From Synechococcus sp. PCC 7335 (lineage in GTDB: Bacteria; Cyanobacteriota; Cyanobacteriia; Phormidesmidales; Phormidesmidaceae), in the NCBI RefSeq assembly GCF_000155595.1, contig NZ_DS989904.1, positions 1,565,175 through 1,629,174 of the forward strand: a stretch of 64,000 nucleotides of DNA, given 5' to 3'. The notes beneath the pieces were generated by a model, which did no database searches, had not been told where the DNA came from, and saw only the letters and a list, made by a program, of their open reading frames with translations. The position numbers and the translations under genes were made by a program. Position 1 is the first letter of the stretch. Every line of letters begins with the position of its first letter. This document shows, one piece after another, positions 46,166 through 50,714 of the stretch.

Positions 46166-47923
46166 ATGCTATTAATGCGTTTACCGTCTAGACACTGGCT
46201 CAAGCTAGGATTGGCGTTTGTGCTAGCCTTAGTCGTCGCTGGATTCACTGGGCAACCTGGCTTTGCCCAATTCTCTTTACCCGACGGGTTTGGACAAGGC
46301 GACGTCGTAGGTCCACCGTCAGAGGTTACCCGTTATGGCCATATTGAAACTATCCTCGTAAGGTCTCCGCTCAATCCTGACCCGCTGTTCACGATCGCTT
46401 CGCCAACAGTTTATAACCGACAGAGCGATGCATCGTTAGAACAACGACCTGTAGAGCAACGTGCTGAAGAAATTAAGGCCAAGCTCCTACTTTTGCTAAG
46501 GCGGGAAATGAACCCGGATACGCTTGTATTCGAGGTATCAAAACTGAATAACATCGCCATTATCGATGTTAAGAATGAGCAATACCCTCGGCCTTTGGTT
46601 TTAGTTTCGGTAACTGCTAATGATGCTGATTTTAACGGTCAGCCCATCGATGAGCTAGCCAACGAATGGCGCGACATCTTAGAAGAAGATATCCGCAGCG
46701 GTCTGATGAAACTGCCAGCAGCAGAGAGACAAGTCACTCAAATTGTTCTAGGTCTGCTCCTCGTTACGTTCGTTGGAGTAGCAATAAAGTACAGCTTATC
46801 TAGGCGCCAGGGCGTACTTAGACAGAGAAAAAAAGTAGTTCAAGCCGCCTCGCAGCAAGCTGAATGGAACGAGATTGCGGAAACTAAACCCAGCCTCTTA
46901 CCAGAGCAGATAGAACAGAAGCGAGCCAGTTTCGTGCAAGGAATGCAGCGAGTGTTTAACCTAGACCGTCAGCTTTCTGTACTAGACTTTGTGCAATGGC
47001 TGCTGCTTTGGTTGATTATTCTAGCTTGGTATGGCGGGGTTACTACAGTTGCGATTGTTTCACCTTACTTACTGGAGAATTACCTTGGGTTCTTAGAGTC
47101 ACTGATTCAGGTGTTAACCATCTGGTTTATCACAGGGTTGGCTATTCGCCTTTGCCGCTTTCTAATAGACTACTTCACAACTGAGAGAAAGGGAATTGAC
47201 CTAAGCGACCTTCTGACCTACGGAGATGCTCAACGACGTCACCTGCGAGCTTCCACCATTGCTGGAGCGCTTAAAGGATTAGTCACTGTTATCATTATCT
47301 TAGCGGGGTTATTATCAGCTCTTTCAGCAGTGGGGCTGCCAACAGGATCGGTCGTAGCCATTGGTAGTGTGGCAGGCCTAGCTATTACCTTTGGCTCCCA
47401 AAACCTAGTTAAAGACTTGGTGAACGGCTTTTTTATCTTGGCGGAAGATCAGTATGCCATCGGTGATGTAATTGATATCGGTACAGCCGCTGGGCTGGTC
47501 GAAGCTCTGAACTTGCGGGTAACGCAACTTCGAGGCGGCGACGGTGAGCTAGTGACCATTCCTAACAGCGGCATTGCTCAGGTCAAGAATCTAACCCGAA
47601 GCTGGTCGCGAGTTAATTTCAGTGTTGATGTAGCCTATCAGACAAACCCCGACGAAGCCTTGAGCACACTTAAAGAGGTTGCTCAAAAGCTATACGACGA
47701 TCCCGACTGGCATGACAAGATATTGGCTGAGCCAACTGTTCTAGGAATCGATGGGATATCACACAGCGGTATAACAATCACCATCTGGATACAAACAGAA
47801 CCGTTACAGCAATGGGCGGTCGGACGAGAGTTGCGCTTGCGTGTACGGCGAGCCTTCACCGAAAAGGGCATCGAGATTGGCATGCCGACTTACAATCTTC
47901 TAGCAGCGATAAAAGACAAGTAA
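46166..47923 (+). CDS. MscS-family mechanosensitive channel
   Basis: The 585-residue protein has a signal or anchor peptide (LGLAFVLALVVAGFTGQPGFAQ), a periplasmic domain of about 160 residues, several membrane helices and the MscS core. The pore helix is GSVVAIGSVAGLAITFGSQNLVKDLVNGFFIL. The beta domain is DQYAIGDVIDIGTAAGLVEALNLRVTQLRGGDGELVTIPNSGIAQVKNLTRSWSRV. It would open on membrane tension to relieve osmotic shock. ATG 46166 is the first, with 46175 equally possible. Its end touches the decayed nhaC copy on the other strand. Confidence 0.9.
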   Translation: MLLMRLPSRHWLKLGLAFVLALVVAGFTGQPGFAQFSLPDGFGQGDVVGPPSEVTRYGHIETILVRSPLNPDPLFTIASPTVYNRQSDASLEQRPVEQRAEEIKAKLLLLLRREMNPDTLVFEVSKLNNIAIIDVKNEQYPRPLVLVSVTANDADFNGQPIDELANEWRDILEEDIRSGLMKLPAAERQVTQIVLGLLLVTFVGVAIKYSLSRRQGVLRQRKKVVQAASQQAEWNEIAETKPSLLPEQIEQKRASFVQGMQRVFNLDRQLSVLDFVQWLLLWLIILAWYGGVTTVAIVSPYLLENYLGFLESLIQVLTIWFITGLAIRLCRFLIDYFTTERKGIDLSDLLTYGDAQRRHLRASTIAGALKGLVTVIIILAGLLSALSAVGLPTGSVVAIGSVAGLAITFGSQNLVKDLVNGFFILAEDQYAIGDVIDIGTAAGLVEALNLRVTQLRGGDGELVTIPNSGIAQVKNLTRSWSRVNFSVDVAYQTNPDEALSTLKEVAQKLYDDPDWHDKILAEPTVLGIDGISHSGITITIWIQTEPLQQWAVGRELRLRVRRAFTEKGIEIGMPTYNLLAAIKDK

Positions 47924-47935
47924 GGCACTGTTGTT

Positions 47936-48773
47936 GTGTCGCGATGTACTGATCCGACGCAGTGGCATTCATGAACAGGCAGGTGACTACGGTTGATCCG
48001 ACCAAGGTACCCGCGCTATTTGCACCTGCAAGGATAGTGCTAGCCAGCTTCTGTAGCATGCCACACGCTTCTAACATGCCGCCGAACAACATCGCGGTGA
48101 TAATTAGCCAGATCGTGTTGAGCATACTGCTCATGCCCCCTCTAGAAAACAGATCGTCAATCACCGCATTGCCGGTCTCGATGCTAAAGCCGTCAGCAGC
48201 TATCTCTAGCAATAGCCTGTAGGCTCCACCCAAAGTAAAGTTTCCATCGAGCATCGTAGTTAGCAGGCCTCGCTGAAAAAGCAGCGCTGCCAAACATCCT
48301 AAAAGCACTCCAAAAATTAGAGCAGGTAGAGCAGGTACCCGTAGCGCCACCATCGTTACGACCAACAGCGGTACCGCTAGCAGCAATAGATTCAGATTGA
48401 AGTTGCTTTGAATGACCGTCTGTACATCAGCAATGGCGTTCCCGCTCAAGCTATCACCCTGATAGAAAAATCCGAGCACCAGAAACCCGATCAGAGATAG
48501 TCCAATGGCTGGCCCTGATGAGTAAACCATATGACGAATGTGGGTGAACAAATCAGTCCCCGCCATTGCCGGTGCCAGATTAGTAGTATCCGATAGGGGA
48601 GACATCTTATCGCCAAAGTAACCGCCTGAAATCACTGCGCCAGCAATCATCCCTACTGGAACGTTGAACGTTTTGCCAATTGCAATCAGCGCAATGCCAA
48701 TCGTGCCACTAGTAGACCAGCTGCTGCCCGTACACAGAGCAACAATACAGCTCACAATGCAGGAGATAAACAA
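47936..48773 (-). pseudogene. nhaC-type Na+/H+ antiporter remnant
   Basis: The minus-strand frame encodes the core of NhaC (ALCTGSSWSTSGTIGIALIAIG, GGYFGDKMSPLSDTTNLAPAMAGTDLFTH, MLFGGMLEACGMLQKLA). The N-terminal third is missing: the frame begins with TTG inside a membrane segment and stop codons (TAG, TAA) lie just upstream. The C-terminal part ends at ASDQYIA; the frame then runs antisense into mscS and encodes unrelated residues. NhaC proteins are about 450-480 residues, while about 280 are left. It is most likely a dead gene truncated at both ends. Confidence 0.8.
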
Positions 48774-49025: not shown

Positions 49026-49358
49026 ATGATCGCACATGTAAAACAGTTTCTGTATCTCAGTATTGGATTAGGTCTTTTATTCACCGTAGCTCAACTAACA
49101 AGTCTTGGGACTTATCATCAGAAAGAGTCTGTGAATCAAGGGTTGCAGCTAAACGGCCTGCAGCTAAACGGACTACAGCTAAACGGCCTACAGCTAAACG
49201 GACTCGAAATGAATAGAGATTCTTTGCGTAATAGCGTTACTCAACCTGTTGAACAGATACCTTCTGATTGGATCGATACAGACAATACAAGTATCAATAT
49301 GTCCAGCAAAGAGATGGAGAATGTTGTTCTTGATGGCAGTAAAATTTCCTTTCAGTAA
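49026..49358 (+). CDS. Small secreted LQLNG-repeat protein
   Basis: An N-terminal hydrophobic helix ([22 protein letters not shown]) may be a signal or anchor. Residues about 38-60 are four perfect LQLNG pentapeptides, encoded by 15-bp tandem repeats at 49143-49202. A polar tail ends with [12 protein letters not shown]. The strongly beta-helical pentapeptide pattern, and the gene's position 25 bp before an ADYC-type gene, suggest a paired system. In myxobacterial proteins I recall such LNG repeats and the ADYC domain in one polypeptide. ATG 49026 has GAGAG 10 bases upstream. Function unknown. Confidence 0.7.
49143..49202 (+). repeat. 15-bp coding tandem repeats (LQLNG)
   Basis: Four head-to-tail 15-bp units encoding Leu-Gln-Leu-Asn-Gly, differing only at third positions (such as GGCCTGCAGCTAAAC and GGACTACAGCTAAAC). 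Copy number could change by slippage. Confidence 0.9.
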
Positions 49359-49383
49359 TACCAGCTGCTTTGGCTATACTCAT

Positions 49384-50145
49384 ATGCAGACGAAACGCAT
49401 CTTTTTCATACTGTTGGTCTTGCTTATTGTAGGATCGAGCCGTGATTCTTTTGTATATAGAAAAGAAGTAGTTGGAGCAACACTTGCGAGCTTCAATGAG
49501 GAAGGGCAGGCGCAAATTCTCAACATCAAAGATGTTCAGATTGATAGTCGAGATCCATCTGAAGAAATCTATCTCTATACCGTTGAGTATCAGCAAGCTA
49601 ACGGACAGTGGCAAAACCTGTGTTTCCCAGACAGTGAAGGCATAGCAAAAGCCATTCCGCTGTCTGGACGATGGGATAGAACAGGAGCGCATCTCAACGA
49701 TAGCAGCATCACATTTGCTTGCACTAGCGGAGCCTTAGCTAAATGTGTTCGTTGGGGTTATATGCCCTGGAAGCGCATTGATGGTGAATCGCTCCGGGAC
49801 TATCACCAAGCCTGCACCCGCATGGTACGTGCTGATTATTGCGGTGATGGCGTTGGTCACACCAAGGAAGGTACAGAGATTGATGTGTATGATCGTTTGG
49901 GGTTGCAGCAAAGAACCAGAGGAAGCGGTATGACATTTGAAGCGGCCTGGGGAGCTGATGGGGTTGTTCAGCTAAACCATTTACGATTCGAAGGCGCGAT
50001 CGCACAGTTAAAGCATGACTGTCCTAAGAAGATGGCATCAGCTCAGCAGGCTATTCGGTATGACAGTCATTATGAAGGCCAATTTCAGCCGAAACTGTCC
50101 GACCCACTCATCTTCAACGACTCCTTTGTTCAATTGGTCAAGTAG
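49384..50145 (+). CDS. Secreted ADYC-domain-like protein
   Basis: ATG 49384 gives a 253-residue protein with a signal peptide (MQTKRIFFILLVLLIVGSS). The body has YLYTVEYQQANGQWQNLCFP, FACTSGALAKCVRWGYMPWK, LRDYHQACTRMVRADYCGDG and EIDVYDRLGLQ. The ADYC-GDG motif and paired cysteines match what I recall of the ADYC domain of myxobacterial exported proteins. No enzymatic role is known. An upstream in-frame extension to 49249 reads antagonistically over the preceding gene and is not credible. The gene lies 25 bp after the LQLNG-repeat gene and is probably co-transcribed with it. Confidence 0.7.
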   Translation: MQTKRIFFILLVLLIVGSSRDSFVYRKEVVGATLASFNEEGQAQILNIKDVQIDSRDPSEEIYLYTVEYQQANGQWQNLCFPDSEGIAKAIPLSGRWDRTGAHLNDSSITFACTSGALAKCVRWGYMPWKRIDGESLRDYHQACTRMVRADYCGDGVGHTKEGTEIDVYDRLGLQQRTRGSGMTFEAAWGADGVVQLNHLRFEGAIAQLKHDCPKKMASAQQAIRYDSHYEGQFQPKLSDPLIFNDSFVQLVK

Positions 50146-50216: not shown

Positions 50217-50714
50217 ATGGCGCAACCAGCACCAACTGCTAAACAACACCCTAATTTCCGCCAGCGAATGGCCCTAATGAATGGATGGGAGACAGAGGTT
50301 GTGATTAACGCCCCTCGGGAAATGGTTTGGGATCAGGTAACCAACTTTGAAGCCTATTCAGAGTGGAATCCTTTTGTACGTAAGGCTCAAGCTGAATTCG
50401 TTGTAGGAAAGAAGATCCAGTTCCTAGAAGATCTTGAGCAGTTCGGACAGCACTGGTTGGAAGCCACCTTTCTATCAATAGATCCATATAACGCTTTTGT
50501 CTGGAAGGGATATTTCGGAGCATCCTTCCTCTTTTCAGTTCGTCATACGTTTACATTCGAAGCTATCAGTAAAGAGGAAACTTACTTTAGTCAAAGCCAC
50601 AAGAATTTTGGGCTACTAATTCCTTATCTAGCTTTGCGAGGCATCTATTGCGTGAGCTATCAAAAATATCTTGACTTTAACCAAGCGCTCAAAGAACGAT
50701 GTGAAAGCACATAA
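50217..50714 (+). CDS. SRPBCC-family protein
   Basis: The 165-residue protein has the START/SRPBCC pattern: ETEVVINAPREMVWDQVTNFEAYSEWNPFVRKAQAEF, then the beta-strand series with LEATFLSIDPYNAFVWKGYF and FSVRHTFTFEAIS, and a C-terminal helix. Such folds bind hydrophobic ligands in a deep cavity; ligand and pathway are not evident here. ATG 50217 follows AGTGGCGGTAAC with a weak ribosome site. It lies downstream of the ADYC-like gene and may be in the same transcript. A repeat resembling the dispersed palindrome family follows at 50735. Confidence 0.78.
   Translation: MAQPAPTAKQHPNFRQRMALMNGWETEVVINAPREMVWDQVTNFEAYSEWNPFVRKAQAEFVVGKKIQFLEDLEQFGQHWLEATFLSIDPYNAFVWKGYFGASFLFSVRHTFTFEAISKEETYFSQSHKNFGLLIPYLALRGIYCVSYQKYLDFNQALKERCEST

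Follow-up and report, generated by a model that had tools for sequence, protein, structure and literature searches.

ADYC (PF20032) is a named protein domain without known function, and a search of the literature available to us under either name found nothing. In one clade of Myxococcota it occurs behind LNG-type repeats in a single chain, a form that is presumably already known in outline; it had been named in the sequence-only reading of our locus and does exist, filling 32 rows of our tree, all of them from Myxococcota. In plants, repeat precursors are processed by BURP-domain peptide cyclases, with which they may share a chain (in cis) or not (in trans). In the window, by which we mean the whole stretch of 64,000 nucleotides of Synechococcus sp. 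PCC 7335 that was analysed, the repeats and the ADYC domain are encoded in two neighbouring genes with the following features:

49026..49358, + strand: gene of the LNG-repeat partner, 110 aa, predicted to be exported; called from the ORF, a paralogue and orthologues
49026..49103, + strand: signal segment of the partner, 26 residues, from a hydrophobicity heuristic, extent approximate
49143..49202, + strand: four perfect LQLNG units; the unit consensus h-x-L-N-G is common to all groups
49314..49355, + strand: strand motif conserved at the C-terminus of the partner, 14 residues, family form VEGGQLVxV
49384..50145, + strand: gene of the ADYC protein, 253 aa, ATG start at 49384
49384..49440, + strand: N-terminus of the ADYC protein, a signal or membrane anchor, strongly hydrophobic, without lipobox
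49462..49986, + strand: ADYC domain PF20032, residues 27-201, Pfam profile match

The ORF coordinates and a repeat scan confirmed the four perfect LQLNG units, which at the DNA level make up a 15-bp tandem repeat (49146-49201, 92% matches), and the distance of exactly 25 bp between the stop codon of the partner and the ATG of the ADYC gene. The two do not share one open frame, so the locus is not of the fused LNG-ADYC type. A degenerate two-unit LQLNG pattern had no second site in the 5.97 Mb genome, and its reversed-pattern control gave 0. A second copy of the pair lies on another contig of the window genome (L003, 1050-2162); its ADYC gene, which is intact in Leptolyngbya sp. Heron Island J, differs from the copy there by a 4-bp gap, is frameshifted and was read in two frames. 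The partner shows the traits of a grouping that we made here, namely period-5 h-x-L-N-G units, an export signal, a VEGxxL C-terminus and an ADYC neighbour. Its version of the terminal VEGGQLVxV strand spans 10 residues, within a tail that we read over its final 11 residues. Neither protein of the pair gave a match in NCBIfam.

The assignment of the second protein to ADYC, made at first from its motif, was borne out by a profile search with 49384-50145, which matched PF20032 with 199 bits (E 9.2e-59; the cut-off is 27 bits) over profile positions 2-174 of 176. The protein has the RADYCG motif, the core cysteines and the invariant residues C80, C113, K120, C121, C144, R146, R149, D151, Y152, C153, D170 and E186. 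C80, C113, C121, C144 and C153 are invariant in 49 rows of the alignment, and C213 is present in 46 of these. Two extra cysteine columns covary (both present in 30 rows, only one in 3, both absent in 16), as a disulphide would. AlphaFold models the fold of the window ADYC protein with confidence (mean pLDDT 86.6, pTM 0.84). A sequence search of the PDB returned chance hits only, and Foldseek, run with models of the window protein and of a fused protein, found nothing under E 0.001 (best 0.73 and 0.19, respectively). Residues 24-93, approximately, weakly resemble SH3/tudor-like barrels over about 50 residues, with VIA-align Z scores no higher than 3.7 (model of the window protein) and 4.3 (fused protein). 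The fold cannot be called new, because these matches barely cover the C-terminal part of ADYC.

To see how the two genes are arranged elsewhere, we used the best 80 of 122 confirmed ADYC loci from a scan of genome contigs, which came from Cyanobacteriota, Pseudomonadota, Fibrobacterota and Myxococcota. At each locus the ADYC frame and its flanks were read, giving 38 two-gene loci with usable flanks; L013, with a run of N at the place of the partner, and L026, which is broken, were left out. An automatic partner test, requiring at least three N/Q-G/A steps at a spacing of 5 or 10, was positive for the ORF just upstream of ADYC in 29 of the 38 loci. Among the 2269 other ORFs of these loci it was positive for 7, of which three are true partners at other places (1.4 kb upstream in L023, downstream in L034 and L041). 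Reading by eye added L025, L030, L045, L050 and L052, the first and third of them weak, so that 37 of 38 two-gene loci have a partner; L021 has none within its 5.5 kb. Outside the 80-locus set, the Rhizobium plasmid pWSM4643_1 has a repeat partner directly downstream of ADYC, with period-5 NAITA-type repeats and the C-terminus VISVELPSGK. As it is annotated 'hypothetical protein' and no publication on ADYC was found, the suggestion of an undescribed secreted pair agrees with our results. In L130 (1755-3072), on a Rhizobium symbiont plasmid, ADYC comes first, the repeat partner lies 3′ of it and a LuxR-type regulator adjoins; two LNG partners stand in tandem before one ADYC in L018 (2771-2998 and 3447-3674) and in L053 (3047-3349 and 3350-3793).

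The LNG-ADYC pairing is thus a rule and not a local oddity. Rare adjacency elsewhere had been named as an outcome that would speak against the pair; the two genes turned out to be adjacent or fused almost everywhere, including in other cyanobacteria. The separation into two genes holds for our locus and is not peculiar to the window genome, as all cyanobacterial loci, all sampled pseudomonadotal loci and some from Myxococcota (L028, L030 and L031) are of the two-gene type. The joint travel of the two genes and their occasional fusion suggest one unstudied cell-surface complex.

The order of segments is constant in fused and two-gene forms: signal, LNG repeats, VxLP strand, (V/L)EGxxL strand and ADYC core. 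What differs is the position at which the chain is cut. In Pseudomonadota, Fibrobacterota and some Myxococcota the cut follows the VxLP strand and the ADYC protein opens with VEGTxFxVTL, whereas in cyanobacteria and in the MAG loci L029 and L030 it falls one strand later, the partner ending in VEGGQLVxV and the ADYC protein being without that strand; L029 and L030 show the cyanobacterial pattern on both genes. In a test with a position-specific matrix from cyanobacterial partner tails, which was devised after the alignment had been seen, a VEG(T/S)xF motif about 140 residues before RADYC ranked first or second among the hits in 16 of the 19 two-gene ADYC proteins from outside the cyanobacteria, and in none of the 14 from cyanobacteria. 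For the fused proteins, shuffling gave weak results (most p values above 0.05), as their inserts differ in length and LNG units look like the motif, and for this reason we relied on the two-gene comparison. AlphaFold places two strands of a fused protein (91-97 and 100-105, pLDDT about 90) just before the core, at the aligned motif site. It appears from these alignments that the domain boundary of the module moved between two chains during evolution.

Export was called by a hydrophobicity and motif heuristic, and cleavage sites do not come from a dedicated predictor. By this heuristic all sampled ADYC proteins, and nearly all proteins of the pairs, have an export-type N-terminus. Both window proteins have N-terminal signal segments and, as had been proposed, are probably exported. 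Of the 15 other ADYC proteins from cyanobacteria 8 have a lipobox, as do 15 of 28 fused proteins; 14 of 21 other two-gene ADYC proteins have an AXA site only.

We consider it an even call that the two genes encode two chains of one exported complex with strand donation, in which ADYC presents the LNG ladder. That they form a widespread and hitherto undescribed exported two-component module, in which an ADYC protein of unsolved fold, unable to complete its own sheet, receives a strand from the cyanobacterial LNG partner, we put forward tentatively, at somewhat less than even confidence. From the pairing and the position of the cut we infer a physical complex, strand donation and extracytoplasmic display. 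In the two-gene form a Sec-type signal would take the partner out of the cytoplasm, and the ADYC protein would be tethered, through a lipobox in many cyanobacteria and through a bare hydrophobic N-terminus in the window protein. The partner would then dock on the disulphide-bonded core of ADYC. Its last strand, in cyanobacteria, would lie at the edge, a place taken in other bacteria by a strand of the ADYC chain itself, and ADYC would display an LNG ladder of variable length in the periplasm or on the cell surface, with a structural or a binding role. A clade of Myxococcota would make the identical module as a single chain, with a signal or lipobox at its front. The structure of the ladder itself is unsupported, because pLDDT is below 50 for the LNG repeats in the fused model.

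The same data can be read with ADYC as an enzyme and the LNG protein as its substrate, the repeats being core peptides that undergo cleavage or modification once outside the cytoplasm. The number of repeats ranges from 0 to 25, against an ADYC core with 20 invariant residues, K, R, D, Y and E among them; the repeats look disordered in the fused model, the alternation between cis and trans would suit a precursor and its enzyme, and the fold list includes a small BURP match (Z 2.8, which is noise level). We nevertheless consider such a role unlikely, as a Pfam search of the window ADYC protein at E up to 1 gave no enzyme family and no BURP match, reading by eye showed no recurring biosynthetic or protease genes near the ADYC loci, the C-terminal strand of the partner is better conserved than the repeats and more like an interface, and an export signal is predicted on both proteins, which is not usual in bacterial peptide pathways. 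The LNG protein might instead build a fibre or a pentapeptide-type beta-helix scaffold, with ADYC as anchor or nucleator. The period-5 unit present in all groups fits such a scaffold, as do the longer arrays, which match PF00805 weakly (above the cut-off in some homologues, L031 and L057, the latter with E 9e-8), and secreted N/Q- and G-rich repeats are reminiscent of functional amyloids. The window partner, however, has no match to PF00805 at E up to 1, the repeats are modelled at low confidence and four units would make a short solenoid, and we regard the scaffold as quite unlikely.

It had also been proposed that the pair arose by a split of a fused myxobacterial gene or by transfer from a myxobacterium. 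In an unrooted tree of 70 ADYC sequences the fused forms lie on one side of a branch (99/92), the cyanobacteria form one clade (100/93) and the architecture changes once. The segments of the pair are identical in kind and order to those of the fused form, the window stretch around the pair is absent from genus relatives, and an AU test that nested the cyanobacteria beside two fused myxobacterial sequences (Hyalangium and Pyxidicoccus) gave p 0.092, a placement that is disfavoured and not rejected. Yet the fused clade excludes all cyanobacteria, and two-gene forms occur also in Pseudomonadota, Fibrobacterota and some Myxococcota; a recent split or transfer is therefore not favoured and seems improbable to us. 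Since the root of the tree is not known, fusion in Myxococcota and one ancient split both fit it. The later cut of cyanobacteria, L029 and L030 may have a single origin, as their union in one clade was not rejected (p-AU 0.485). Finally, that the two genes have only their operon in common, the repeats being a low-complexity spacer without contact to ADYC, is very improbable: repeat length and predicted order do vary freely, but a spacer cannot act in trans, and a separate partner with a conserved C-terminal motif stays beside ADYC across phyla.

ADYC is rare and patchy in cyanobacteria, because it was found in only 3 of 65 genomes of the window's order and in 2 of 386 genomes of an even sample of Cyanobacteriota, one of these being the window genome. 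Among Myxococcota it is present in 11 of 141 genomes, the centre genome included, with about 26 to 32 matches, fragments included, in each of three Nannocystis-type genomes and 3 in a Sorangium. Nannocystis poenicansa FL3, the genome of L028, and two other Nannocystis genomes represent a large ADYC expansion, and Microcoleus, Azospirillum, Tahibacter, Solimonas and Peristeroidobacter are among the genomes with a single copy. The window stretch was probably gained or often lost, because it is absent from genus relatives, and it looks strain-specific around the pair. Upstream, an NhaC-type antiporter ORF (47856-48773, - strand, 305 aa) has genus relatives of 28-35% identity that are mostly 458-512 aa long, one shorter relative of 231 aa lying near a contig end; the ORF looks truncated. 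Downstream, 72 bp 3′ of ADYC, a START/SRPBCC-type gene (50217-50714, + strand) has a 37-residue match in 1 of 6 other genus genomes. No wider conserved neighbourhood of the ADYC loci was seen, as neither the START-type gene nor the antiporter occurs in the other loci, and no promoter or terminator candidate exceeded chance level in a scan. Phage cargo was considered and rejected, as a search of viral contigs and phage records found no relative.

That ADYC has a partner of its own across phyla, whether fused or separate, is the first concrete handle on it. Work on ADYC should take the pair as its unit, and a single-copy cyanobacterium, Azospirillum or Rhizobium would be simpler to work with than Nannocystis. 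If an edge strand can indeed reside on either of two chains, the module would offer a clean natural case for strand complementation.

Compared with known systems, the pair recalls the plant BURP peptide cyclases in joining a repeat chain to a conserved domain in cis or in trans. This is an analogy only: the pair is bacterial and has no sequence or significant fold match to them, and any catalytic activity of it is hypothetical. With pentapeptide repeat proteins (PF00805) the partner shares a period of 5, a central L or F and a G at the end of the unit, and long arrays match that family weakly, but the partner has N-G at positions 4-5, is predicted to be secreted and in the window is without a profile match. 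The two-gene loci of Pseudomonadota (Azospirillum, Rhizobium, Nevskia and others) likewise have a separate partner with LNG or LNA repeats beside ADYC; unlike the window locus, they are cut one strand earlier, the partner ending in VxLPxG...R and ADYC retaining VEGTxF. The fused PF20032 proteins of Myxococcota (Nannocystis, Polyangium and Sorangium) have the same invariant ADYC residues as the window protein, LNG repeats in front and an export signal. Compared with them, the window ADYC protein is without the second covarying cysteine pair, and what they hold in one chain is divided here between two genes, with the EGxxL strand on the partner.
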